A stretch of DNA of 64,000 nucleotides from an uncultured Clostridia bacterium. Its GTDB lineage: Bacteria; Bacillota; Clostridia; Oscillospirales; CAG-382. The notes beneath the pieces were generated by a model that saw only the letters and a program-made list of their open reading frames with translations, searched no databases and was not told the DNA's origin. The DNA lies in assembly GCA_947628695.1 (NCBI GenBank), contig CANRAV010000004.1:1-64000 (forward strand), written 5' to 3'. The stretch's first letter is position 1. Each line of letters begins with the position of its first letter. The translations under genes were made by a program, and so were the position numbers. Positions 7,278 to 40,500 of the stretch are shown here, piece after piece.

Positions 7278-7326
7278 GTCATAAAAAGCAAAAAGCCGCA
7301 ATATTTAAAAATTGCGGCTCCATTTT

Positions 7327-7690
7327 CGCAGAGTTTATAACTCTATGACAAAGACGAAAAAAGCCCGCCGGTTGGCGGGCTTTACGGAAAATGTCGGCAG
7401 TTATGACGATTTGTTTGACGGCGAAATTAAAGCATTGAAAAAACGCCTGCAAGATGTCAGAAAGGGCTGCAAATTAAACTGTTTTTCGGCTTTTTTACTG
7501 ACGGCGGAATTGACGGCTGTTTAATGAAAAGAAGTGCCGATTTTGAGTTTTTAAAAGGCGTTCGCCTCATTTTTGGTGAAAAGATATAAAAATTTCCTCC
7601 AAATTGCCGTTGATTTTTTCGCTGAAACCATTGAAAAACTGCATTTGCTGTGATATAATTGCACTCGTAAAGTTATAAACTATGCGAAAG
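7327..7690 (+). repeat. Copy A of ~360-bp duplicated non-coding block upstream of giant adhesin 1
   Basis: Shares ordered blocks with 32362-32712: GAGT-N5-ACTCTATGACAAA-ACGAAAAAA; the exact 29-mer GTCGGCAGTTATGACGATTTGTTTGACGG (7393-7421); ACTGACGGCGGA; AAAAGGCGTTCGCCTCATTTTT-GTGAAAAG; CATTTGCTGTGATATAATTGCA. Confidence 0.85.
7631..7659 (+). promoter_or_regulatory. Sigma-A-type promoter for giant adhesin 1, inside the duplicated block
   Basis: TTGAAA (7631-7636), 17-nt spacer, TATAAT (7654-7659); same architecture in copy B. Confidence 0.8.
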
Positions 7691-7805
7691 TGGGCGTACG
7701 CTTTGCTTTATTTTTCGTTCGCAGTCGAGCGAAGACAGCAAGTAGAAAGCGTAAGTCTAATAATACAGACGATTTGAAACAGACGGGCTCTAAGGAGGTA
7801 TCTGA

Positions 7806-10800
7806 ATGAGGATGTTACATAATTCTAAGCACTGCAGGCTTGCAAGGAAAGGCGCTGGTGCGGTCGGGCATCACTGCCGCAGGGTTCTTTCTCTGCTTTT
7901 ATGCGTGTGCATGCTTGTGCCCATGATATGCAATTTTGACGGAATGACGCTGTCATCCTCGGCGGAGTATACAAACTATGCCCTTAACCGCATTGCAGAC
8001 GCAGGAACCATGAATTCTTACGTCGGCAAGCTGCTTTCCGAAGACTGGGGCAGTCGCTATGCCGGCCGTGTTTGGACGGACAAAAGCGTCTTTGCCTACG
8101 GCAGCGATATTGCCCTTACAAACAATTATGACGGTTATGAAGGCAAGGTCAGCTTCAATTCCGACTTTGGCACGGTGTTCTCCGCGCTGACCAGCTCGCA
8201 GGTTGTCAACGAGTATCCTCCTGCACCCATAGACCTGGTAATTGCGCTTGATATGTCTGCGTCCATGGCGCAGGATACCCGCTTCCCCATAAATGATGAC
8301 AACTATAAGAATAATTCCGCGAAAGAGCGCAGCATGGCAGATCGCATCAAAAACTCTCGTATTCAGCAAACGCTTGACGCGGTGAACTCAACCATTGACT
8401 CGCTGATGAAGCAGAATAAGGAAAACCGCGTTTCGGTTGTCGTTTACGGCGCGGGCGCGGCGGTGCTTATGCCGCTTGCACACTATGCGCGTGTGGGTGA
8501 CGCTCCGTATCTGACCGTCAGCGGCATGGAAACTCTGTATGATTTGGACGATTTGAAAATTGATGATGCGGAAGGCTGGGTGTGGGTTAATAACCGCGAC
8601 GCCTGCTATACAATCAAAGCCGACGCAATGTATTCGAATTTTGACAATCCGACCTTCGCCGAACGCCTGACCCACACAGTCAGCAACAATGTCGACAACC
8701 GCAACCCCAGAAATCCGGCGAAAGACCACATCGACTATACGGAAGTTGTAAAAGCAAACCCCGGCTATCCCGATCAGTCGGATGCGAATCACCATGAGTT
8801 TTCCAAAGATGAAAAGCAGCTTACAGCTGACGAATATGTAGGCTATTTTACAAACACGCAGGGCGGCGTCTACCTCGCCTATGCGCAGCTGGCGCAGTCC
8901 AAGGAAACCACATTTACCGCGAAGATTTCCACCGGTGAAGACGTTACCGTTGCCCGCATTCCCGCTGCAATTATTATGACCGACGGCGGCGCAAACTTTG
9001 CCTTCAACGAGATGGACGAGTGGAATAAATTCTACGGTGTCCACAGCTCGGCTTATGATAATGGCTTTCGTCACGATAATTCAGCAACGGATCATACCAA
9101 CCCGTCTTTAGGCTGGACAATGGACAGCACCGACTTCTCCCATCGTTTGGGAGAAAATGTGGGTGACGAGTGGTATAATGTCTATCTGCCCGGGCAGTTT
9201 GACGATGAATGTAAAATAACCTCTCTCTATAATATTGGAGTTGTAGATGGAACGGGAAAGTTAAATACCATGCCGTATTGGGATAACGCGGGTATTTTTT
9301 ACAGCAACGACAATGATCCGTTTGCTACCGGCGGCACGATCTTACAGCTTATCATGACGGCCGCTTATATGAAGTCTGTCGTCCAAACCCACTATACAAC
9401 CGGTTGGGACGATGGTCACGTCACCAAGGACAGCCGTTCTGATCTTTTGACCTTTACCATGAGTGTCGATTCCAAAAACGTTCCTCAGTGGGGCAGGCTG
9501 CGCCTATATCCGTCGCTTGACCCGGCGAATTACCTGTTCAGCAGCGATCGTTGGAGTAATGATGAGTTTAGCGGCGAACTTGAATCCGGTACGTATACTC
9601 CCGGTTTTGAGCGTGCCTTAAGAGCATGGGAAGATTGGAAAAGCACCGGTCAAACGTCAATCGTGATGGCGGCAAGCGGCTCGGTGGCAAATATGCTCTC
9701 CTTTGAAGAAGGCTATAAGGACGAGCGGTTCAACGTGCCCGTGTCAAATGCGGACGTTATAAGCAACATCGTATACACAAACGGCTTTTTCGACATTGCT
9801 TCGGGCGAGTTGGTAACAAAGTTTCAGCAGATACTTTCTGAAATCACCGGCAACGTATTCGTTCCCGTCTCGGGCGACAACGACGCAGGCGTTGGCGACT
9901 CCGTCACTTATCAGGACCCCCTGGGTGAGTATATGGAGCTTAAGCACGGCGTCATCACGGTTGACGGCGCTGTGACCGGTTCGAACGAAAATTCCTTCGA
10001 CATGTCCATGCTCTTCTTCGGGGAGATGCACGGGCTTGTTCGTGCAGGCGTTTACGACTATCAGTGGAATAACGCCTATATGCGTAATAATAAGAGCAAG
10101 CCGGGTTATCCCGAAGACGCCGGGAGAAATCCCGATAGTGACCCTCTTAGGATCGGCTGGTATAAAGGCGATGCGGAAACCGCTGTATACAGCTATGAAA
10201 GTAACGGTCTTCCCAAAGGCTGCACGTCTGCGAAGCAGGCGTGGGCAGAGGGCTGGGTTCTGCGGTTCAACTACAAAACCCTGGCGGAGTTTGTGCCCGT
10301 TTCCGGCATCACGGACGAAATGCTGCCGACCGAGGTGCCGGAGCAGATCCGGAACACAGTTTACACCTGCTACCGCTTTGCGGATTCGCAGGCAGAGCGC
10401 AACAGACTGCGCCGCAACCCCGTTTACGGCGACGGAGTGCCGCAGGATCTCGTCGACGAGTGGGACGCTTATTACGCTGAACACGGCTCCTATCCCGTAG
10501 GCATGGACCGTTATAAAGGCTACCCCGGCGTTTTCAGGCTGTCGGATATAAGGGTTTGGGCGGAGCATACCGGCGACTTTATCGACCAGACGGGCGCAAT
10601 CACGCCGGAGGACGAAAGCGGTTACGACGATTCGCTTTATATCAACATACCCGTTGCGGCGGTGCCGACACAGCTTGCCGAGATTACCCTCGGCGCAGAC
10701 GGCCCCATCGCCTACAAGGACAATTTGGGTAACAAAAAGCAGTCAACCCCGATCAGGCTGTTCTACGCCGTCGGGCTGACTGAGGATCTCATACTGCGCG

Positions 10801-13800
10801 ACTCGGGCGGGAGGCAGACCGGCGTTGACGTTGCGAAAATTTCGGGCGAATACATTGCCTCTCACAGCGACCCGGAAACCGGCAACATCTCCTTTATTTC
10901 CAACTGGTACTCCAACACCGTTTACCGCGGATACACCAGCGACGAGAGCAGCTACGGCTACAGCACCCGCGGCGACGCTGCGGTCAGCTTTTCGCCCGAC
11001 GTTAAGAACCGCTATTACCTCTTCCAGAAGGCGCTGCCTTTGATCGCCCACGCATACCGTGTTACGGACGCAAGCGGCAATGTCGCACCGGTGGATCGCG
11101 CAGACGGCCAATCCTTTGAAAAGGACGGCTCCGGCAACAGCAGGACCACGTGGGAGACGGTAGACGGCACGCCGCAGTCTGCGGCTGACTGGGTCGGCGG
11201 TGAGTTCATCGGTACGTATGAAGATGAAGCCGCCTTCAAAGCCGCGCTGGGCAGCAAACAGCAGCTTGTTGCAGGCAGCAGCATTCAGTATATCAAGGAC
11301 GACAAGGGGTATTACTACCCACTGCCTGCCGACATTACCGACGCAATCATAACCTATACAAAAGACCAGCTTTCAAACGTTGATTCCGACGAAAGCGGCA
11401 AGTATAAGGAAGGCTCCAACTCCTTCTCGTCCGACGACTATTTCTTCCTCTGCATTGAATATTATCTGCCGACGGAAGGCGTTGGCAAGGACATTGAAGG
11501 CAACGATGCCGCCGGCACCCGCGCCGTGCGCAAAATTAACCGCATGATCGCCCGCAAGGGCTCTGCATTCGGCTCCGGGCTGCATTCGAAAAATATCAAC
11601 AACGGCGATATGCTTTGCTGGTCGGATATCAACGGCAACTGCAATCTTGAAATAGAGTACAATTCCCGCACCGACACGGGCGACAATACCCGCGGCCGTC
11701 CCACGCTTGAAAAGCTGACGCTTACGGGTGATGACCTGCGTGCGTATCTGAAAAAATGCGGTCTTAGCGAAACATTGGGAGTGACCGTTACTGACGCGGC
11801 CACAGGGGCGGAAAGCTTTAAAAGCTACCTCGACCTTGACTGCGAATACTGGGAGAACGTCGTGCAGGCAGACCGGCACATGGCTGCGCTGATTGCCGAG
11901 CTTAAGGAAACGCCGGAAGTCGAAAGGCAGGAAAAATTCGACGAGATGTTCGACTGGTCGGTTTCGGCAAAAACAGGCGGCATACGCGTGGGCGACATGT
12001 ACAACAACGTTCAGCCCAAGGGCGGAAGTACTGCTATCGAGGAGGGCAGCACGGAGTTCTACGCAGGCAACAAAACCCACACCGCAAACAACTTTTACGT
12101 TCCGACCCTGTCTGAAACCTCAACTGCCGGCGAAGGTATGGTTATCAACAACTTCCTCGGCAACAACGGGCGTATGGAGATAGCAAACGACAACCTGATT
12201 GTGACCAAGACGCTTACTGCGCCCGACGGTTACAAGCTGACTGCAGCACAGGACGACGAGCTTTTCAACTATCAGGTGTATGTTCAGGGCTGGTCGGGAG
12301 AGCGCTTTGCACAGCGGCTTAAGTGGAACCCCTTCTCCCGTACCTGGCAGAGGCGTGTTGAAACGCTTGACATACTTACCGACAACTCGTCGCTGCTTGT
12401 CGACACCTCCGGCAAACGCGCGCTGTTCTGCCGCGCGGACGGCGGAGAGCCCACGCAGATTGTAGAGGAGTTTGTCGACGGCGTTGCAAATTATTACTAC
12501 GCTGACGAGAACGGTCAGTCCACCGGAGAGCCGTGCAACCATTCTACGGATGACTTTTTCTACCTGTATCTGCCCGGGGATGCGAGCGAGCTGGTTTATC
12601 ATCTGTTCGCCTCTACCTATGACGGCGGTACTACGGAGCTTGACGGCGTCGGCACCACCGCATATTACCCGCCGGAGTATGCCGGTCAGCTCCCCGAGGG
12701 CGATAACAGTGCGCAAAAGTTTGAAGAGGCCACCAAAGAACGCCCCGCCGGCAGCCGTGAGTATTGGTCTGCACAGGCAGAGCTTATCCCGTATAACGAG
12801 GTTCATGCAGCCGAAAGCTCTACGGATGACGCAGGCAGCGGTATTGCCGTTATGGCTTTAGAGGCGGAAAACGGCGGAGCCCGCTGGGATCACGACTTTA
12901 ACCACGGCGAAACAGCTATGCATCAAAAACTGGACAAGTTTGTGCTTGCTACGGTTATCCCGGACAGCGAAGGCGTAGAGTCTACGGTTTATTCGCCGTT
13001 CAGCAGCCGTACCCAGTATATGACAGCGGCGCTTTATTTCGGCTATAAGGCAGAGCTGACAGAGCACCTTGCTTCCGAGAACGAGACCTTCACGGCCTGC
13101 AGCCATTTGGACACGTATAAGCTTGATGCGACCGGGCTTTACGATCAAAGTATACCAACGGAAGAACGCTCCGACCTGTTCAATGCCGAAAGACGCAGCG
13201 ACACGCCAGCAAAGTTGGCTGCAAACACGGCCATGTTTACGCTTAAAAACGGCGAAGGCCTTCTGCTTACGGGACTTGGCAACGACGTTACATATCGCTT
13301 TACGGAGGATTTGACAAAAGCACAGCTTGCCCAGGGGCATAACCTGAAAGACGTCAACCACATAGAGCAGCCGGATTCCGACCCTCTGCCTGACAGAAGC
13401 CTTAATGACGAAACCGGCATATACTCCGTCTTCGGAAACACCGATTACTTTACAGAGCAGACCCACTACACCAACACCGTCGACCCGGAGCTGTTTGTGT
13501 TGACTAAAAAAGTGGTTGATGATGACAATAAGCAGGTCGACTCTTCTACGAGGGAGTTTACCTTCACCGTCACCTTTACACCAACGGACAGTGTCGCCAT
13601 GGTCGACGTGGACGACACACTCCACTACTGGAAGGGCAGCAAGGACACCTGGCAGAGCACCGAGGAATGGACGGACGGCAAAGGAAACACCTACAAAATG
13701 CCAAAGGAAGCGCCGAGGCTTGACGGGTACGAGCAATATCTTACAGACAAGACCTACCGTCTGAAAGACATAACCCCGGATGAAGGCAAGGACGGACACA

Positions 13801-14624
13801 CCTACACCGTCAAGCTCAAGGCAAACGAAGCTGTCGTTTTCTACGGCCTTATTGCGGGTACGCAGTTCACCGTCACCGAAGAGAAGGACGAGACGTACCC
13901 CGTTGTGAAGGACGAAGGCGAGGGTGTGTCCAACGACGGCTACACCAAATCCGGCACTATCCTTAGGGTAAGCGAAGACCCCAGAACCATGGACCCGAGG
14001 CAAACGCCGAACCGTGCAGACTTTACAGACCTTATGCAAAGCGGCTTACTGACGGTAGAGAAGTACATCCACGACGCCGACCGTTGGAGCGTGGAGGAAA
14101 AGTTTGAATTCACCGTAACTCTTACCGCCGAAAAGGATCAGGCAATAAGCGCTTCCTTCCTTACGGTGACAAAATTCACTAAGACCGAAGACGGGGAAGA
14201 GACAAGCGAAACGCTTACCGTGTACTGGAAAGAAACCGAAGACGGCGGCAAGGTGACCGCACTGACTGCTGTTTTCGAGCTGATGCAGGGACAGCGTATA
14301 GTCATAGACGGCATCCCCTACGGTACGGAATACACGGTTGCGGAGACAAACACCGGCTCTTACAACCTTGAACACGTTGCGGACAATTCGGAAGACAAAC
14401 CCGGCGATGACGGAAACTACCTCATAATGAACCGCAATGAAAACAGCGTAAGCGGTACCGTCACAAAGGAGCAAAGCGACGTATTCCTGCTCTTCGACAA
14501 CGCAAAGCCGATAGAAATGCCGTTTACCGGCGGCTTCGGGCTTGAAGCGTTCTACGCGGTAGGCGCTGTTCTCCTGCTTGCTTCCGGCGCAGTTTGCCTG
14601 TGCAGGAAGCGCGATAACGCGTAA
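7806..14624 (+). CDS. Giant LPXTG-type surface protein: signal peptide, vWA domain, Cna-B-like domains, MPFTG sorting signal
   Basis: AAGGAGG at 7792-7798; RRVLSLLLCVCMLVPMI signal; MIDAS-like IDLVIALDMSASM and MTDGG; C-terminal Cna-B-like repeats (LTVEKYIHDADRWSVEEKFEFTVTLTAEKD...GIPYGTEYTVAE); IEMPFTGGFGLEAFYAVGAVLLLASGAVCLCRKRDNA. Confidence 0.92.
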   Translation: MRMLHNSKHCRLARKGAGAVGHHCRRVLSLLLCVCMLVPMICNFDGMTLSSSAEYTNYALNRIADAGTMNSYVGKLLSEDWGSRYAGRVWTDKSVFAYGSDIALTNNYDGYEGKVSFNSDFGTVFSALTSSQVVNEYPPAPIDLVIALDMSASMAQDTRFPINDDNYKNNSAKERSMADRIKNSRIQQTLDAVNSTIDSLMKQNKENRVSVVVYGAGAAVLMPLAHYARVGDAPYLTVSGMETLYDLDDLKIDDAEGWVWVNNRDACYTIKADAMYSNFDNPTFAERLTHTVSNNVDNRNPRNPAKDHIDYTEVVKANPGYPDQSDANHHEFSKDEKQLTADEYVGYFTNTQGGVYLAYAQLAQSKETTFTAKISTGEDVTVARIPAAIIMTDGGANFAFNEMDEWNKFYGVHSSAYDNGFRHDNSATDHTNPSLGWTMDSTDFSHRLGENVGDEWYNVYLPGQFDDECKITSLYNIGVVDGTGKLNTMPYWDNAGIFYSNDNDPFATGGTILQLIMTAAYMKSVVQTHYTTGWDDGHVTKDSRSDLLTFTMSVDSKNVPQWGRLRLYPSLDPANYLFSSDRWSNDEFSGELESGTYTPGFERALRAWEDWKSTGQTSIVMAASGSVANMLSFEEGYKDERFNVPVSNADVISNIVYTNGFFDIASGELVTKFQQILSEITGNVFVPVSGDNDAGVGDSVTYQDPLGEYMELKHGVITVDGAVTGSNENSFDMSMLFFGEMHGLVRAGVYDYQWNNAYMRNNKSKPGYPEDAGRNPDSDPLRIGWYKGDAETAVYSYESNGLPKGCTSAKQAWAEGWVLRFNYKTLAEFVPVSGITDEMLPTEVPEQIRNTVYTCYRFADSQAERNRLRRNPVYGDGVPQDLVDEWDAYYAEHGSYPVGMDRYKGYPGVFRLSDIRVWAEHTGDFIDQTGAITPEDESGYDDSLYINIPVAAVPTQLAEITLGADGPIAYKDNLGNKKQSTPIRLFYAVGLTEDLILRDSGGRQTGVDVAKISGEYIASHSDPETGNISFISNWYSNTVYRGYTSDESSYGYSTRGDAAVSFSPDVKNRYYLFQKALPLIAHAYRVTDASGNVAPVDRADGQSFEKDGSGNSRTTWETVDGTPQSAADWVGGEFIGTYEDEAAFKAALGSKQQLVAGSSIQYIKDDKGYYYPLPADITDAIITYTKDQLSNVDSDESGKYKEGSNSFSSDDYFFLCIEYYLPTEGVGKDIEGNDAAGTRAVRKINRMIARKGSAFGSGLHSKNINNGDMLCWSDINGNCNLEIEYNSRTDTGDNTRGRPTLEKLTLTGDDLRAYLKKCGLSETLGVTVTDAATGAESFKSYLDLDCEYWENVVQADRHMAALIAELKETPEVERQEKFDEMFDWSVSAKTGGIRVGDMYNNVQPKGGSTAIEEGSTEFYAGNKTHTANNFYVPTLSETSTAGEGMVINNFLGNNGRMEIANDNLIVTKTLTAPDGYKLTAAQDDELFNYQVYVQGWSGERFAQRLKWNPFSRTWQRRVETLDILTDNSSLLVDTSGKRALFCRADGGEPTQIVEEFVDGVANYYYADENGQSTGEPCNHSTDDFFYLYLPGDASELVYHLFASTYDGGTTELDGVGTTAYYPPEYAGQLPEGDNSAQKFEEATKERPAGSREYWSAQAELIPYNEVHAAESSTDDAGSGIAVMALEAENGGARWDHDFNHGETAMHQKLDKFVLATVIPDSEGVESTVYSPFSSRTQYMTAALYFGYKAELTEHLASENETFTACSHLDTYKLDATGLYDQSIPTEERSDLFNAERRSDTPAKLAANTAMFTLKNGEGLLLTGLGNDVTYRFTEDLTKAQLAQGHNLKDVNHIEQPDSDPLPDRSLNDETGIYSVFGNTDYFTEQTHYTNTVDPELFVLTKKVVDDDNKQVDSSTREFTFTVTFTPTDSVAMVDVDDTLHYWKGSKDTWQSTEEWTDGKGNTYKMPKEAPRLDGYEQYLTDKTYRLKDITPDEGKDGHTYTVKLKANEAVVFYGLIAGTQFTVTEEKDETYPVVKDEGEGVSNDGYTKSGTILRVSEDPRTMDPRQTPNRADFTDLMQSGLLTVEKYIHDADRWSVEEKFEFTVTLTAEKDQAISASFLTVTKFTKTEDGEETSETLTVYWKETEDGGKVTALTAVFELMQGQRIVIDGIPYGTEYTVAETNTGSYNLEHVADNSEDKPGDDGNYLIMNRNENSVSGTVTKEQSDVFLLFDNAKPIEMPFTGGFGLEAFYAVGAVLLLASGAVCLCRKRDNA

Positions 14625-32184: not shown

Positions 32185-32190
32185 TAACGC

Positions 32191-32227
32191 AAAAATCCCT
32201 GTAAAGCTTGTCTTTACAGGGGTTTTT
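32191..32227 (+). terminator. Terminator after tRNA-Pro
   Basis: CCCTGTAAAG cttgt CTTTACAGGG followed by GTTTTTG. Confidence 0.85.
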
Positions 32228-32361
32228 GTTATATTGTGAACAGTCCGTTCAGCGAGTCTGCTACCGGCATTTTTCGGGCGCTGCCATAGTGAGGGTAAAT
32301 TTCAGAATCCAAAATCGAAAATCGGCACGGCGTGCTTTTTTGTAGACAAAAAACGCCTTTC

Positions 32362-32712
32362 GCCGAGTCCGTTACTCTATGACAAAAACGAAAAAATTCC
32401 GCTGTTAATCGAGTTCTTGGGGGAATTGTCGGCAGTTATGACGATTTGTTTGACGGTGAAACGGCAACGCGGCAAACGCCGCAAAAGCGCCGTAAAGCTC
32501 ACAATCAAGCCATTTGCTTGGTTTACCTGACGGCGGAGCTGAAGGCAAAGCCGTTAATAAAAGTACAATTTTTTAGTTCAAAAAGGCGTTCGCCTCATTT
32601 TTAGTGAAAAGCAATAAAAAATTCCTTCAAATATTCGTCGATTTTTTCGTAAAAACCATTGAAAATCGGCATTTGCTGTGATATAATTGCATTTGTATAG
32701 TTATAGACTATG
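32362..32712 (+). repeat. Copy B of the duplicated non-coding block upstream of giant adhesin 2
   Basis: Collinear with copy A (7327-7690); exact 29-mer at 32428-32456; same AGGCG-TT-CGCCT hairpin and same promoter core at its 3' end. Confidence 0.85.
32659..32687 (+). promoter_or_regulatory. Sigma-A-type promoter for giant adhesin 2, inside copy B
   Basis: TTGAAA (32659-32664), 17-nt spacer, TATAAT (32682-32687). Confidence 0.8.
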
Positions 32713-32976
32713 TGTAGGTAGGCGTGTGCCCACACTGTGCAGACACGGCGCGGCCGGCGGAGGTATTCTTTTCCACGCTGCTTACTGCGGCCTTCCCGGT
32801 ATGCCGCGGCATATCGCCAAACGACGGGACAACGGCAGAGAACGGCTTTCTCACGCTCAGCGGAATATTTTCCTTTTGGGCGGGCGCAGGCTCTGCAAAA
32901 AGCGTGAACGCTTAAGACAGGTATAAGAAATCAGTTATTGATACAGACCTTTTTTGACAAGGAGGCAAACGAAAAA

Positions 32977-35900
32977 ATGAGAATTTCAGATAGTGCAGCA
33001 AGAAAAGAAGGACGCGGCAGCGGCGCTTTTTGGCCGTGCGCATTGCGCGTGCTTTCGCTTTTGCTGTGTCTTTGCATGTTCGCGTCCGTTATATTGGATT
33101 ACGGCGGGAATTTGCTTCGCTCGTCGGCAGAGCCTACGGATGCGGAGTATGTTATCGACCGCAAGGCCGACAATCAAACGATGGACGACTATATAATGCA
33201 GCTATTGTCTCAGCAGTGGGGCTCCCGTTACGCGGGGCGCATCTGGACGGATAAAAGCGTGTTTGCCTACGACGGGGCGAAGTCTGCCGCCGACAATAAG
33301 ATCGTACTTGATATGGCTACCGACGGCTACACGGGGGAAGTTAAATTTTCCGCAGACTTTGCGCATGTTTTCAGCGCACTTGCAAGCTCGCAGGTTGTGC
33401 ACGAGTGGCCGCCTTCCCCTATCGACATGGTGCTGGTTCTCGATATATCGTCTTCAATGGGCAATGCAACAGATCCCGATCCAAGCTCTCCATTCGGGCA
33501 GGCGCGCGCCGCGCTTGTAGAGTACTTTAAAGGCGAAGGCTCAAGTACCATAGACAACGATGACTTTAAAAAATATTACAGTGACAAGCACTACACCCGT
33601 TACGACATTGCCGATTCAAAAGGAAACGACTACCTTCAGGTTTTCTTTTATTCAGATGCGCTTGAAAAAAGCTTCCTTGCCGGTGAAACTATAGTTGTTG
33701 CGGATCATCCGGGTGAAATAGAGATAAAGCCGGACGGAAACACGGCCGCAAGTGCCGTACCGGATCGTATAACTCTTAATGAAAACGGAACTACCGCAAA
33801 GCAGAGGGAAGACAGAACAGGTGAATTTTGGGGGAAAACCCTGGAAGAGGTTGCCGCCGCAAGGGCATTGCCCTATACACGGTATTCTAACCTCGTTTAT
33901 TCCGCTGACCGCGTTATAACCGCGCTTATGAAGAATAACCCGGAAAACCGCGTCGCAGTTGTCGTGTACGATCGCCGCGCATCCGTTGTTATGCCTCTTG
34001 CGCACTATACTCCCAATGAAGTGCCGATTTCACAAATGGACGGTAATTCAAATGCCTACTATGACTATCACTATTTGGACGGGCACCCGGGCAAGACGCC
34101 TGAAAATGCCGATGCGGTAACGAGGATTGTTTCCGGTTACGTTAAAGACCTTGTCTTCGGTTATCTGTGCCCGTATATTGACGGCCACGGGATGAAACCG
34201 GCTGAAAACCACCCCACTAACTATGTCGACTTGAGCACAAAAATTCAGGTTGTTTGCTCGGCGGAAGAGGGTGTAACGACCCGCAACGTTGCCGATAGCT
34301 CATCAAACGGGGTTGTCCGCATTTCCGGTACGAACACACACGCGGGGCTTACAGCCGGTTTTGAACAGCTTGCGGACGCAAAAGAGACCACTTTCTCTGC
34401 ACAGCTTACCTCCGGCAGAACCGTGACGGTGCCGCGTATTCCTGCGGCTATCGTAATGACAGACGGCGGCTCCAACACCGTTGCAAACGGCCCCTGGTAC
34501 GATCCCGATTGGGCAGACCCGGTGCAGAGGAACGACAATAAAACATCCTGGTCGTCCGTTGTTGACACACAGTACCTTTTGACTGCGGCTTACTTAAAAT
34601 CCGCAGTTGAGAAAAACTATTCGGCATACATGGAGGTTAACGAAGGCGAGCAGGACTTCCCGGTATACACCGTCGGTGTCGACCTTCGAGACGACAGTGA
34701 CGCCTGGGTTCCCGCAAGACTTTACCCCATGCTTGACCCGGCTAATTTCTTCAAGGAAGCGGCCGCTCTGCCGGATTACGCAGGCAACCCAAGCACCCTA
34801 ACCGGCGATGTTGCTTTGGACAAAACGACAAAGAATCACATAGGCGAGGCTTATAAAGACTGGCTTGAGTGGGCAAGCGGAGACACCGCACAGCCTACCG
34901 AAGACTTCGAGGTTGTTCACTGGAGCTCTACAAACAGAGTGCCGACCCATCATTTCCAGCAAGAGGACGAAAACAACCAATACCCCATCCCGTTTGAGCA
35001 GGACGTAGGCGAGGACGGCAAGGAGGCAAACAGCAAAAACTGGAACCCCGACTATACGGGCAATAAAGAAACAAGCTATGCGGCTGACAGCAGCGGTACG
35101 CGTTTCAACCTTACCTGGCACGGCTGGACTTCAGAAACCCTCAACGACAAAGGCGCAGGTGATCCACAGGTTTGGAGCGATTATGGCGTAAACAGTGACG
35201 CAACGGCAATTTGGGGTCGTGCTACTTACTGGTCGTTCGCCAATGCCTTGGCTGCTGCAAACGCAAGCGGCGGCGCAGACACTGCGGCGGGTTATATGCT
35301 TGACCGCAACGTACAGTACACGGACGACGTAAGCAAATTGACGCAGACCCGTCCCGTAGCGGCCGTTACGCAGTCGGACATAATCTCCAACATCAACTAT
35401 GTGACGGAGTTCTACAATGTAACCTCGTCACAGATGGAATCGATATTCGAGCAGATTTTGACCGCAGTAATCGGTCAGGTGTTCGTACCCATCGCGGGTG
35501 AAAACGAATCCGGCGTTTCCAACTCCATAACCTATCAGGACCCGCTTGGCGAGTATATGGAGATAAAGAACGAGTCTATTAAAGCTACACCTTACCACGT
35601 TGACGACCCCACCGTCGCCGATAAAGGGGAGCAGACTTACGACATGGCAATGCTCGTCTTCGGCGAGATGCACGGCCTTGTTCGCGCAGGCGTTTACGAC
35701 TGGAACTGGAACGACACTTGGATGTTCCTTAACGAAGCTGAGGCTCAGGGTATTAAAGCTTTCCCCATGGGCTGGTATAAAGGCGAGCCTAAGAAAGGAC
35801 AATCAGCCCTTCCCAATGACAAAATAAAAGTTGACAGTGACGGTTCAAGCACATATCCCGCTTGTGATTATCCCGACAATCCCGATAAGACGTACACCAG

Positions 35901-38900
35901 TGCGCAGGACGCGCGAGACGACGGATGGGTATTCCGGTTCGACTTTGCAACGATGTTGCAATTCGTTCCCCTTAACGAGAACGTTGACCCCAGTACGCAC
36001 CCAAGCGACCTGTCACCGCAGATAAAGAACACCGTTTACACCTGCTACCGCTTTGCCGGTTCGCAAACGGACAGGAACGAGCTTAGGCGCAACCCCATTT
36101 TCGAAGAGGGCGTACCTGCGGATCTGACGGCAAACTGGGACAAGTACTACGAAGAACACAACCACAAATACCCGGACACGGACGAAATGTATAGGGACGT
36201 TCCCGGTGTTTACCGTCTTTCCGATATCCGCGTTTGGGTTGAGGAATACGGCGACTTCAAGGACAGCGAGGGCGCAATTACGCCTAACCAGGGCTACGAC
36301 CGCTCGCTGTACATGAACATCCCGGCGGGTGCCGTGCCTACACAGCTTGCTACCATTACCCTTGACGTGGACGGCGTACAGTCCTACAAGACCAACCTTG
36401 CGACAGACAAGGGGCTTGCCGAAGGCAGCGAGGAATATAAGGCGTTCAGCCGTCAGTCCACGCCGTTAAGGCTGTTCTATTCTGTCGGCCTCGAGGAGGC
36501 GGTTTTAATCCGCGATGAAGATGGCAATCAGATAGGCGTTGATGTCAACAAGCTGTCTGCAGAATATGTAACCGATCACACCGTTGCGGAGAACAACCGC
36601 ATTTGGTTTATCTCGAACTACTACTCAGGCACTACGTATGACAATTACGTGACGGATACTGCGTCTTACCGCACGCGCGGCGACCCGACAATGACCTTCT
36701 CTCCGAGTATAGAGAACAGGTACTATGTCTTCCAAAAGCCGCTTCCGCTTTACGCGCACGCGTACAAGCAGGTTAATCCCGAAAACAGCAATCAGCTTGC
36801 GGCTGTCGATATAAAGGATGGTTTTTGGCGGCAATGGGATACTCCCGGGCAGGCGGGCGGCAACTGGAACTGGTCGCCGGCTCATCCCAACGGCGGCGGT
36901 AACGGCAGCACCACCTGGGAAAACGGCACCACCGGCGGTACCTGGGTCGGCACCAATTTCATGGGCACGTACAAGGACGGCGCTTCTTTCGGAATTGCAA
37001 AAGAAGAAATGCAGAAAAACGGCCCCGACGAATTTGGCAACAGTTATATTACAGACGACCACGGTTCGACCTACCTTTACACCGACGACGGCATAGTGTT
37101 CTTTGAGGACGACGTGATGGACAAGGTCACGACAAAGAAGGACGGCAGCGGTTACGAGGAGGATTCCAATTCCTTCAATTCCGAGGACTACTACTTTATA
37201 CTTATAGAGTACTATGTGCCCGACGGTACGGTTGGCTCCGGCGTTGATGAAAAGGGCAACCCTGTGCAGTACTCTTACGGCGGCCACATGGTGCAGCATG
37301 TTGTTGCAAGGCGTGGCAGCGAGTTCGGCTCCGGTTACGTGTCCGACAAGATTAACAACGGCGATATGCTTTGTTGGAGCGATATGACCGGGCAGTTCGA
37401 TACGCAGTTTGAGTATCTCTCCTACTCCGAGACCGGCGACCGCACACGCGGCGAACCTACCTTTGAAAAGCTTACTTATACGGAAGAGACACAGCTTCGC
37501 AATTATCTGGAAAACGAATGCGGCATAAAGCCCGACGTTACAATGGATAATCCGAATTACAATGCCGACACAGACCCCGAAGACGCAAAGACAATAAGCG
37601 TGCTTGACTGGCAGGTGCAGTATTGGCTTGGCATTCAGCAGAACCCGCAGGTTGCGGCTGCGCTTGAAACGGCGCGGATGCTTGCGGACGAAGCGGGCAC
37701 GGAGTTTAACGCAAGCGTCTTCAACGAACGCTTCAAGTTTGCCGTATCGGCGCGTCCGGGCGGCATACGCTCCGGCGATATGTCAAACAACCGCCACGCA
37801 AAGGGCGAGAACATCACCGGTACTGCGGGCAACTACTACGTTCCGACGATTTCCGACAACTCCGGCATCGGCAACGGCGTTATAATCAACAACTACATGG
37901 GCAACAACGGATACCTTGAGATAGGCAACGAGACGCTTCATGTCACCAAAACGGTGGAAGCACCCGAGGGCTTTGAGCTTATCGAAGGTTACGAAGACGA
38001 GGAATTCAACTATCAGGTATACGTTGAGGGTCTTACCGGCACGCGCAGCGCCGTGCGCACAACCTACAACATTTACGGCAAGGTTTGGGAACGCGAGCTT
38101 GCCTATATAGACGTGCTTACCGACAACGGCGACTTGGCACTTGACAACAACTCCAACCGTGCGCTGTTTATATCCGCTGAAATCGGCGCCGGGTTGATGG
38201 GGAAAGTGCAGAGCGCCAAGATGATTGTTGCCAACGGCACATACGAGGACGACGGAAGCCCGATTTACTACATCGCGAACGAGGACGGCACGGTACCGCT
38301 GGATGCAACCGGTTCGCCGGATTCAACGAAGATTGTTGACAAAGGGACGCAGCTTTACTACCTCTACCTGCCGCCTATTAACCTCAACAAGGAGTCCGGT
38401 CTTGCTCCGGAGTCGGAAACTCCGACACAGCACGTACGCAGACTGTATCAGAACAAGAAGTACGACGGGACTGCGGAGGGCTATCCCGGTACTTATGAAG
38501 ACGATTCGGAGAACTACGACGCTATCTTCCGGCCCAACGGAATAACGACCTTTGTGGACGAAGAACATTCTGCCGATGTAACCGGCACAGAACCCGGTGC
38601 CGATAACCGCGACAGCCGCCGTATGGAAACGGCAGACCGTCCCGCCGGCACCAAGACCTACTGGGCACAGAATGCGGAGCTTATCCCCATAGAGGAGGTT
38701 ATGGAAGCCGAAGCTGCGGACAGCGCGCTTGGCACCGAACAGCCCGGCGGTATTGCGCTTATGGCCATTCAGGCGACAACGGGCGCTACTTGGACACACG
38801 GTGACACTTGTGACGGCCACATCCACTTGAAGTACTACAACCTCTTCATCAGGCGTCCTTCGGAGGAGTCCAGTAAGACGGATTATGTATCTCCGCTTTC

Positions 38901-40500
38901 GACGCGCACGATGTACCTGACGCAGGAGATGAACTTCGGTTATAACTCCAACGAAAACGACGGCGGAGCGTCCGCTCCCGGTGAAGCTTTGTCGGTGGAT
39001 GACCTTTACGACCAAACCATCCCGAGCGACACCAATCTGTTTGACAGGACATCGCTACAAAGAATAGCCCGCAACACGGCAGAGTTCACGCTTAAGCACA
39101 ACGAAGGCTTGCTGATTACCGGTCTAAGCGACAATTCCGTTTATCGCTTTACTGAAAAGCTTACGGCAGAGCAAATTGCAAAAGGCTATAAGCTTAAGCA
39201 GATAAGCCAAATAGAGCAGGAGGGCGAGGAAAAAATATACGAGCCCGGCGAGCAGAAGGGCGTGTATACCGCCTACGGTGACACCGGCTTGTTTGAGGAA
39301 CAGGTTAGCTACATCAACACCGTCGAGCCTGAGATGCTTGTCATAACAAAGCAGCTTGTTGACGAAAGCGGGAACCTGATTGAAGCCCCGCTTAACGTAG
39401 AGTTTACGTTTACGCTTACGATTACGGACGAAAGCGGTGCGATTATAAAGGACGCTGACGGAACTTTGTACCTGTGGCGAGGAAATAAGGAAGGCATGAC
39501 AAGTGCTTTGACCTGGACGGATGCTTCGGGCGCCGTGCACAAGATGCCGTCGACAGCACCGCAGCTTGACGCGTTTGAGGACTACATCCTTCCGGAAACG
39601 GGCGCAGACGAGAACGCGGGCTATCTGCAGCCGCTTGAGCTTGTCGAAGACACGGAAAACACCTACACCGTAACGCTTAGGGGCGGGGAGGCTGTTGTAA
39701 TTTACGGCCTTGCTGCAGGTATGAAATACACCGTGACCGAGACAAAGGCAGACGGCTATCCCGCAGTCAGCAAAGCCGCGCCGCATTTGGACGCGGATGC
39801 AGCGGAAAATTACGTGCAGGAAGGCACGGTTACGCACAATCCCGACGACAACATTGCGTTTACGCCAAGCCTTACTGCAAACCGTAACGACTTCTTCAAC
39901 CAAATAACCACAAGCTTTATCACGGTTGAAAAGGTCATCGGCGACGACGACTGCTGGGAAGTAAGCACGGAGTTTACGTTTACCGTAACTCTCACGGACG
40001 ACGGCAGAGAGCTTCTTGACAGCACAAGCCTTACGGTAGTGAAATACAAGAAGGCAAAAGACGGCACGGAGACAAGCGAGGAGATAAGCGGCGTCACCTG
40101 GACACCCGGAAAAGACGCAGAGAAGACGACTTACACCGCCGAATTTACACTTAAACACGGCGAGAGGATCGTTATATCCGGCGTTCCCTACGACACCGTT
40201 TACAAGGTTGCAGAGTCCGGTACAAACGGCTATAACCTGCAGCACGTTGCGGGCAATTCAGCCGACGAGCCGGACGAATACGGCCTCTACTTAACGCTTG
40301 ACCGCAGAGACAACAGCGTTACCGGCACGGTCACGAAGGACGGAGCGGAGGCATATCTGCTCTTCAACAACACCAAGCCGCCGGAACTTCCGTTTACGGG
40401 CAGCTTCGGGCTTCTTGCGTTCTATGCGATAGGCGCAGTTGCGCTTTCGGCTTCTGTCACCGGCTTTGTGGTGTACCGCAGAAAGCAGCAGGACATCTAA
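32977..40500 (+). CDS. Giant LPXTG-type surface protein 2 (vWA, Cna-B-like, LPFTG), paralog of 7806-14624
   Basis: ATG 32977 with AAGGAGG at 32959-32965; RVLSLLLCLCMFASVILDYGG; WGSRYAGRIWTDKSVFA shared with paralog; IDMVLVLDISSSM, MTDGGSN; ELPFTGSFGLLAFYAIGAVALSASVTGFVVYRRKQQDI. Confidence 0.92.
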   Translation: MRISDSAARKEGRGSGAFWPCALRVLSLLLCLCMFASVILDYGGNLLRSSAEPTDAEYVIDRKADNQTMDDYIMQLLSQQWGSRYAGRIWTDKSVFAYDGAKSAADNKIVLDMATDGYTGEVKFSADFAHVFSALASSQVVHEWPPSPIDMVLVLDISSSMGNATDPDPSSPFGQARAALVEYFKGEGSSTIDNDDFKKYYSDKHYTRYDIADSKGNDYLQVFFYSDALEKSFLAGETIVVADHPGEIEIKPDGNTAASAVPDRITLNENGTTAKQREDRTGEFWGKTLEEVAAARALPYTRYSNLVYSADRVITALMKNNPENRVAVVVYDRRASVVMPLAHYTPNEVPISQMDGNSNAYYDYHYLDGHPGKTPENADAVTRIVSGYVKDLVFGYLCPYIDGHGMKPAENHPTNYVDLSTKIQVVCSAEEGVTTRNVADSSSNGVVRISGTNTHAGLTAGFEQLADAKETTFSAQLTSGRTVTVPRIPAAIVMTDGGSNTVANGPWYDPDWADPVQRNDNKTSWSSVVDTQYLLTAAYLKSAVEKNYSAYMEVNEGEQDFPVYTVGVDLRDDSDAWVPARLYPMLDPANFFKEAAALPDYAGNPSTLTGDVALDKTTKNHIGEAYKDWLEWASGDTAQPTEDFEVVHWSSTNRVPTHHFQQEDENNQYPIPFEQDVGEDGKEANSKNWNPDYTGNKETSYAADSSGTRFNLTWHGWTSETLNDKGAGDPQVWSDYGVNSDATAIWGRATYWSFANALAAANASGGADTAAGYMLDRNVQYTDDVSKLTQTRPVAAVTQSDIISNINYVTEFYNVTSSQMESIFEQILTAVIGQVFVPIAGENESGVSNSITYQDPLGEYMEIKNESIKATPYHVDDPTVADKGEQTYDMAMLVFGEMHGLVRAGVYDWNWNDTWMFLNEAEAQGIKAFPMGWYKGEPKKGQSALPNDKIKVDSDGSSTYPACDYPDNPDKTYTSAQDARDDGWVFRFDFATMLQFVPLNENVDPSTHPSDLSPQIKNTVYTCYRFAGSQTDRNELRRNPIFEEGVPADLTANWDKYYEEHNHKYPDTDEMYRDVPGVYRLSDIRVWVEEYGDFKDSEGAITPNQGYDRSLYMNIPAGAVPTQLATITLDVDGVQSYKTNLATDKGLAEGSEEYKAFSRQSTPLRLFYSVGLEEAVLIRDEDGNQIGVDVNKLSAEYVTDHTVAENNRIWFISNYYSGTTYDNYVTDTASYRTRGDPTMTFSPSIENRYYVFQKPLPLYAHAYKQVNPENSNQLAAVDIKDGFWRQWDTPGQAGGNWNWSPAHPNGGGNGSTTWENGTTGGTWVGTNFMGTYKDGASFGIAKEEMQKNGPDEFGNSYITDDHGSTYLYTDDGIVFFEDDVMDKVTTKKDGSGYEEDSNSFNSEDYYFILIEYYVPDGTVGSGVDEKGNPVQYSYGGHMVQHVVARRGSEFGSGYVSDKINNGDMLCWSDMTGQFDTQFEYLSYSETGDRTRGEPTFEKLTYTEETQLRNYLENECGIKPDVTMDNPNYNADTDPEDAKTISVLDWQVQYWLGIQQNPQVAAALETARMLADEAGTEFNASVFNERFKFAVSARPGGIRSGDMSNNRHAKGENITGTAGNYYVPTISDNSGIGNGVIINNYMGNNGYLEIGNETLHVTKTVEAPEGFELIEGYEDEEFNYQVYVEGLTGTRSAVRTTYNIYGKVWERELAYIDVLTDNGDLALDNNSNRALFISAEIGAGLMGKVQSAKMIVANGTYEDDGSPIYYIANEDGTVPLDATGSPDSTKIVDKGTQLYYLYLPPINLNKESGLAPESETPTQHVRRLYQNKKYDGTAEGYPGTYEDDSENYDAIFRPNGITTFVDEEHSADVTGTEPGADNRDSRRMETADRPAGTKTYWAQNAELIPIEEVMEAEAADSALGTEQPGGIALMAIQATTGATWTHGDTCDGHIHLKYYNLFIRRPSEESSKTDYVSPLSTRTMYLTQEMNFGYNSNENDGGASAPGEALSVDDLYDQTIPSDTNLFDRTSLQRIARNTAEFTLKHNEGLLITGLSDNSVYRFTEKLTAEQIAKGYKLKQISQIEQEGEEKIYEPGEQKGVYTAYGDTGLFEEQVSYINTVEPEMLVITKQLVDESGNLIEAPLNVEFTFTLTITDESGAIIKDADGTLYLWRGNKEGMTSALTWTDASGAVHKMPSTAPQLDAFEDYILPETGADENAGYLQPLELVEDTENTYTVTLRGGEAVVIYGLAAGMKYTVTETKADGYPAVSKAAPHLDADAAENYVQEGTVTHNPDDNIAFTPSLTANRNDFFNQITTSFITVEKVIGDDDCWEVSTEFTFTVTLTDDGRELLDSTSLTVVKYKKAKDGTETSEEISGVTWTPGKDAEKTTYTAEFTLKHGERIVISGVPYDTVYKVAESGTNGYNLQHVAGNSADEPDEYGLYLTLDRRDNSVTGTVTKDGAEAYLLFNNTKPPELPFTGSFGLLAFYAIGAVALSASVTGFVVYRRKQQDI

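Follow-up and report, generated by a model that had tools for sequence, protein, structure and literature searches.

Non-coding blocks upstream of two giant adhesin genes of a Clostridia bacterium as probable integrase-less invertible promoters

Why should two genes for giant surface proteins be preceded by copies of the same non-coding sequence? The question is raised by the 64,000-nucleotide stretch of DNA from an uncultured Clostridia bacterium analysed here (the window), in which one such block precedes each of two paralogous genes for repeat-rich proteins on the plus strand, namely adhesin A (7806-14624, 2272 aa), with a signal peptide, a VWA-like region, DUF7601/DUF5979 and an MPFTG-type sorting signal, and adhesin B (32977-40500, 2507 aa), with the same architecture and an LPFTG sorting signal. 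An earlier note on this DNA reported the duplication, and the copies A (7327-7690) and B (32362-32712) are indeed there, 74% identical over about 370 bp (BLASTN, E about 1e-56). The ordered series of islands described in that note is also borne out, as the GAGT-N5-ACTC hairpin, an identical 29-mer, TGACGGCGGA, AGGCGTTCGCCT and the promoter island are all found in both blocks. With up to three mismatches allowed, the 29-mer occurs twice in the window, once in A and once in B, with 0 occurrences expected in shuffled sequences, and identity reaches 87% in the island columns of the alignment vs 62% elsewhere in the block (Fisher P=1.6e-7, with islands chosen by function). The further suggestion of selection on the DNA itself, and not on an encoded peptide, holds as well: the 70-aa ORF of block A (7312-7524, TTG start) has no counterpart in B, and we reject the peptide reading of this ORF for that reason.

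What the earlier note missed is that the two ends of block A form an inverted-repeat pair, 29 nt long and 86% complementary, none of 500 dinucleotide shuffles being as good. Taken together with the homology of these ends to an integrase cassette on contig C30 of the same genome (see below) and with the geometry of the sites, this delimits block A as a predicted integrase-less invertible promoter segment, or inverton, in the ON orientation (7326-7693, plus strand). Its left core (crossover) site, CGCAGAGTTTATAACT, is the GAGT-N5-ACTC hairpin (7327-7342, plus strand) and its right core, in inverted orientation, reads CGCATAGTTTATAACT on the minus strand (7671-7686); both are assigned through their 16-mer class and the match between their spacers, which are identical left and right. 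In the right core, binding may be weakened by two changes at outer positions (CGCATAGTTTATAACTTT). The left arm-type repeats lie in the 29-mer (7393-7421, plus strand), in the form of TGACGA (7404) and TGACGG (7416) spaced 12 bp apart, and are recognized by comparison with other cassettes, whose left ends have an equivalent TGACGG pair; the right arm-type repeats, TGACGG (7499) and TGACGG (7511), occupy 7499-7516 on the plus strand and are identified by a distance that is kept among the cassettes. The only strong promoter-like site in the block is the outward promoter TTGAAA-17-TATAAT (7631-7659, plus strand), whose -10 element is preceded by TG; it points toward adhesin A, and a matching promoter is present at the corresponding end of the cassettes in C30, G079 and G099. 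Two predicted terminators are on the minus strand, a leftward internal one just inside the left repeat (7360-7383), called from its sequence, and an external one just outside that repeat (7292-7321), which has a similar hairpin at C30. The palindrome AGGCGTTCGCCT (7556-7567, plus strand), conserved between A and B and weakly in C30, is our guess for an accessory-factor site; no other island lacks a firm assignment. Judged by sequence, the remaining islands fall into place one by one, the GAGT-N5-ACTC hairpin as the left core, the 29-mer as the left arm pair, TGACGGCGGA as part of the right arm pair and CATTTGCTGTGATATAATTGCA as the promoter.

Block B (32361-32714, plus strand) is a second integrase-less cassette, delimited by BLASTN homology and by comparison of the sites. 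The latter comparison, with that of the spacers, places the decayed left core CGCCGAGTCCGTTACT at 32361-32376 on the plus strand and the right core, CACATAGTCTATAACT on the minus strand, at 32699-32714. The left arm-type repeats (32428-32456, plus strand) follow from the 29-mer match and the comparison of arm pairs, and the right ones, TGACGG and TGAAGG (32528-32545, plus strand), from the alignment. The palindrome AGGCGTTCGCCT (32584-32595, plus strand), identical to that of block A, is again a candidate accessory-factor site, and the sequence gives an outward promoter TTGAAA-17-TATAAT directed toward adhesin B (32659-32687, plus strand). Of the properties by which invertons and substrates of tyrosine-recombinase inversion are judged, a predicted promoter inside the segment that faces a surface gene is common to A and B, whereas bounding inverted repeats and identical crossover spacers are found in A and not in B, where the shuffle comparison yielded no inverted repeat above chance and the core spacers agree at only 5/8 positions (CCGTT vs CTATA). 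Because these spacers have diverged, we predict that block B is probably locked ON. Just upstream of block B, a tRNA-Pro-like gene was noticed by eye (window:32110-32185); its terminator (32189-32229) is bidirectional and could act as an OFF-side terminator for this block.

So which enzyme could act on these sites? A whole-genome search with the block A region, of the kind suggested in the earlier note, led to two places on contig C30, where the left and right ends of the block find their respective matches 1.4 kb apart, with a gene for a 370-aa tyrosine integrase between them; in 60 relatives, BLAST with the block returned short fragments only, with the matches in G015 and G026 falling on the internal terminator region. 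The C30 cassette (C30:9197-10650) ends in perfect 17-bp inverted repeats, TCGCAGAGTTTATAGCT, and the sequence CGCANAGTTTATANCT is present in exact form at only four positions of the genome, a pair in A and another pair in C30; the sole other match has one mismatch. The central TTATA spacer is common to A and C30. The C30 cassette precedes a TetR gene and a gene for a 2244-aa adhesin paralogous to those of the window, and its promoter points away from these genes, toward a hairpin terminator, a state opposite to that of A. This hairpin, AAAGCCGCAAT..ATTGCGGCTTT, lies outside the promoter end of C30 and is similar to the external terminator of block A; likewise, a GC-rich stretch resembling the internal terminator of block A follows the integrase stop codon in C30 and G079.

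Two additional integrases of this kind are encoded in the same genome. That on contig C20 (L019:5627-6889) is 78% identical to the C30 integrase, and its locus has kept the right-end promoter and site and lost the left inverted repeat; it is an orphan, possibly trans-acting or possibly decaying. The one on C7 is 40% identical to that of C30 and belongs to a cassette (L020:4251-5778) with near-perfect long inverted repeats, GCGTAGAACATAAACTTCTACGC. The C7 cassette is self-contained, with an outward promoter, TTGACG-17-TAGAAT, that faces a terminator; on its other side lies an operon resembling FHA, zinc-ribbon and PP2C phosphatase genes, and these putative signalling genes may be phase-variable, too. 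In the integrase alignment, R204, K251, H314, R317, H340 and Y350 are invariant, which we take to be the catalytic positions; the C30 and C20 integrases carry these RKHRHY residues and are the candidate cognate recombinases. The integrase profile matches the solved 'Int protein' chains 6EMY/6EN0, presumably the Tn1549 Int.

The C30 cassette is far from being alone. Relatives of its integrase are encoded at 4 places in the same taxonomic family and in 7 other genomes of the class, as well as on a Vescimonas plasmid and on one metagenomic contig listed as phage; nothing was found when viral contigs were searched with the adhesin and the integrase. All 13 relatives that were checked in other genomes (13/13) lie inside inverted repeats of 15-29 nt. 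For comparison, five unrelated integrases of the same genome score 8-11 for inverted repeats, and random 1.1-kb intervals rarely score >14, the few higher-scoring ones being assumed to overlap real cassettes. The order of elements is core, leftward terminator, TGACGG pair, integrase gene (as in C30), second TGACGG pair, promoter and inverted core, and most cassettes have a TGACGG pair, with its repeats 12-13 bp apart, at either end. The distance from the right TGACGG pair to the right end is 191/179 bp in A, 187 in B, 188 in C30, 191 in G079 and 192 in G099; across these five, the alignment of the promoter and right core is nearly gap-free, and arm repeats, promoter and core account for the conserved columns in the right-end and left-end alignments of five cassettes. 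In 16/17 units, B being the exception, the two ends share one 8-bp core spacer, which varies between units, and 0/20,000 shuffles came near this agreement (the spacers are hand-anchored and relatedness is ignored, although a few cassettes are close relatives). In tyrosine recombinases, strand exchange demands identical overlap sequences, so equality of the spacers within a cassette is to be expected. The neighbours of the cassettes are mostly adhesin or SipW/TasA-like genes, that is, giant secreted proteins, TetR with an adhesin, and operons for SipW signal peptidase with camelysin/TasA-like proteins; these names come from recognition of the predicted proteins, except for TetR, identified by a family search just under the Pfam curated cut-off, and one signal peptidase, named in the record's own annotation.

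Several observations concern the periphery of this family. The integrases of R. albus (39%) and of an E. gilvus plasmid (36%) were rejected as members, given the absence of the perfect inverted repeats typical of the family, and mark its edge; on this Enterococcus gilvus plasmid, pCR1A (L069), the 36% integrase is encoded directly before WxL cell-surface genes. In the G012 cassette (L031:1-23, 1459-1480, 1502-1524), one core site is tandemly duplicated, so that inversion could proceed in two alternative ways; here, the integrase match is reported with one in-frame stop. The TetR-adhesin operons in G079 (L064:1100-1320) and G080 (L065, upstream of the adhesin) combine a fixed promoter with one remaining site-like sequence (AACTTGCAGAAG / AAACTTGCGAAAA), and it is possible that these promoters are locked-ON fossils of the switch.

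Does any of these cassettes invert? Between the orthologous loci of G033 and G079, the flanks are collinear at 91-93% identity and a 1,486-bp segment, 95% identical, is inverted, such that the promoter is directed toward the adhesin in G033 and away from it in G079. These opposite orientations between collinear flanks imply that the cassette family does invert. Orientations resembling ON and OFF are both present across the cassettes; the occurrence of both at one locus is seen for this family member between two species, A and B being known from one assembly.

Combining the anatomy of the blocks, their homology to integrase cassettes, the spacer identity within cassettes and the natural inversion of a family member, we consider it highly probable that the blocks are non-autonomous invertible promoters that switch the giant sortase-anchored adhesin genes on or off and make them phase-variable, having descended from integrase cassettes and being flipped in trans by the C30 or C20 integrase. 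Under this scenario, the ancestor would have been a Tn916/Tn1549-like tyrosine integrase gene between two inverted cores, with the end upstream of the integrase gene carrying an outward promoter. Neither A nor B contains an integrase gene, and they are therefore classed as integrase-less derivatives; the loss of this gene would have left both cores, both arm-type pairs and the promoter. The C30 integrase, or its 78% identical C20 relative, would bind the arm repeats, synapse the cores and, acting in trans, invert the segment; for A, C30 ranks first among the candidates because its core and arm sequences match, with C20 coming second. In the assembled state, promoter A faces adhesin A, which corresponds to ON. 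After flipping, it would run leftward into the terminator at 7292-7321, leaving the adhesin silent, and the internal terminator (7360-7383) would move to the adhesin side. In this chain, we infer that A flips in the organism, that C30 or C20 provides the enzyme and that the promoter drives the adhesin gene. Such integrase-less derivatives appear to be rare, since one strict arm-repeat pattern without an intervening integrase, applied to 388 genomes of the class, gave convincing matches only at A and B, and none in the other genomes; the remaining matches look coding by eye, unlike the block, and were discarded. In A and B, the sequence between the arm pairs yielded no convincing trace of an integrase gene.

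Can the same facts be accommodated in other ways? Both blocks could be fossils of a switch, fixed as ordinary promoters with their sites unused, such that the conservation would reflect promoter function only. The mismatched core spacers of B and its non-significant inverted repeat are what such a history predicts, and locking does happen, to judge from the adhesins on G079:C29 and G080:C1, whose promoter is fixed and accompanied by just one site-like remnant; however, the core spacers of A are identical and its inverted repeat is far above chance, arm-type repeats that a promoter does not need are conserved in both blocks (the 29-mer without a single change), and the genome encodes two related integrases that appear intact, so that we deem this explanation unlikely, though worth serious consideration. 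We find it distinctly improbable that the block is a small mobile element, transposable or integrative (MITE-like), moved by the integrase to sites upstream of adhesin genes. Mobilization of elements is the usual activity of such integrases, in many families the cassettes recur before unrelated surface operons, and A and B are bounded by their own repeats, but the cores are inverted rather than direct, which implies inversion rather than excision; the spacers differ between cassettes, which does not fit a single att site; the sole orthologous pair compared differs by inversion and not by presence or absence; and exact sites in the genome are limited to A and C30. The "mobile promoter cassette" or "regulatory landing pad" of the earlier note pointed the right way, and the block does carry the adhesin promoter; the mechanism that was missed is the probable one, an invertible promoter with recombinase sites.

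The two other readings had likewise been anticipated, and to neither do we attach more than a sliver of credence. A structured RNA or sRNA, encoded by the block or forming a leader that acts on the adhesin mRNA, would be compatible with the short palindromes, among them the two mini-hairpins of the earlier note. Yet nearly the whole block is upstream of the promoter and thus outside the adhesin transcript, the palindromes correspond to the recombinase core and to an accessory-like site, both common to the integrase cassettes, and a dedicated sRNA promoter is not evident, the sole strong promoter-like site being the outward adhesin promoter; the proposed upstream sRNA is accordingly unsupported, the conserved features being explained as DNA sites. 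That the blocks are functionless by-products of adhesin gene duplication, as would follow if they occurred only here and decayed neutrally, might be suggested by their position before paralogous genes but is already contradicted on both counts, as the site columns are conserved well above the spacers and both the sites and the block ends are found again on C30 and in the integrase cassettes of further genomes.

If blocks A and B are invertible promoters acted upon in trans, how do they compare with the known switches? The recombinases of fimS, FimB and FimE, are encoded adjacent to the switch, whereas here the relatives hold the integrase inside the segment, and A and B would rely on one encoded elsewhere; moreover, the present cassettes have TGACGG arm-type repeats and a Tn1549-like enzyme with an N-terminal region of arm-binding size. 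What is shared with fimS of E. coli, an invertible segment of 314 bp (PMC9993118), is a short stretch bounded by inverted repeats, with the promoter of an adhesin operon inside and a tyrosine recombinase as the enzyme. In Clostridioides difficile, the cwpV, flagellar and Cdi loci have integrase-free invertible segments upstream of surface genes that are acted upon in trans by the tyrosine recombinase RecV (PMC5903667). A and B are likewise integrase-free and upstream of surface genes, and would be flipped in trans as well, but RecV is a master recombinase located outside its switches, unlike the C30 integrase, which is inside its own cassette, and A and B are deletion derivatives of integrase-bearing cassettes. 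Hin is a serine invertase with a Fis-dependent enhancer, in contrast to the tyrosine integrase with core and arm sites considered here. In its H segment in Salmonella, the recombinase gene is inside the invertible segment (PMC5903667), a likeness to C30-type cassettes that extends to the outward promoter at one end.

The integrases of Tn916/Tn1549 are the best structural relatives (6EMY, 6EN0) and share the arm-type direct repeats at both ends; those enzymes move conjugative transposons, whereas here the sites enclose no transposon, and in place of direct-repeat ends, circle excision and cargo, we find inverted ends with only a promoter and an integrase gene inside. Gut invertons detected with PhaseFinder/PhaseFinderDC are, in the parts of the catalogue available to us, promoters that are bounded by inverted repeats and lie close to surface genes, often also to site-specific integrases, and include inverted-repeat groups from Clostridia (PMC11892184); as far as these parts go, the integrases are near the invertons, in contrast to the integrase inside and the integrase-less descendants in the present family. 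In the open literature, of which our coverage is partial, we found no description of a Clostridia tyrosine-integrase family inside its own invertible promoter with integrase-less descendants. The inverton principle is thus already known from the Fim, CwpV and Hin switches, and the integrase-inside family with integrase-less descendants would be a new variation. We lean, if only slightly, toward the more general proposition that Clostridia-type integrases residing inside their own invertible promoters at adhesin and biofilm-matrix operons seed integrase-less daughters that are flipped in trans.

In functional terms, the switch explains an odd non-coding duplication as an on/off device for very large adhesins in little-studied bacteria. 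Should it operate as proposed, one integrase would co-ordinate several giant adhesins in this organism, with C30 OFF and A ON in the present assembly, and the common TTATA spacer would also make crossovers between the A and C30 loci possible. The recurring cassette, with its integrase, two cores, four arm repeats and outward promoter, is recognizable from sequence alone, and therefore ON and OFF states can be read from assemblies and metagenomes. Furthermore, the integrase-less copies offer a natural test of trans-acting control and of the locking of switches.
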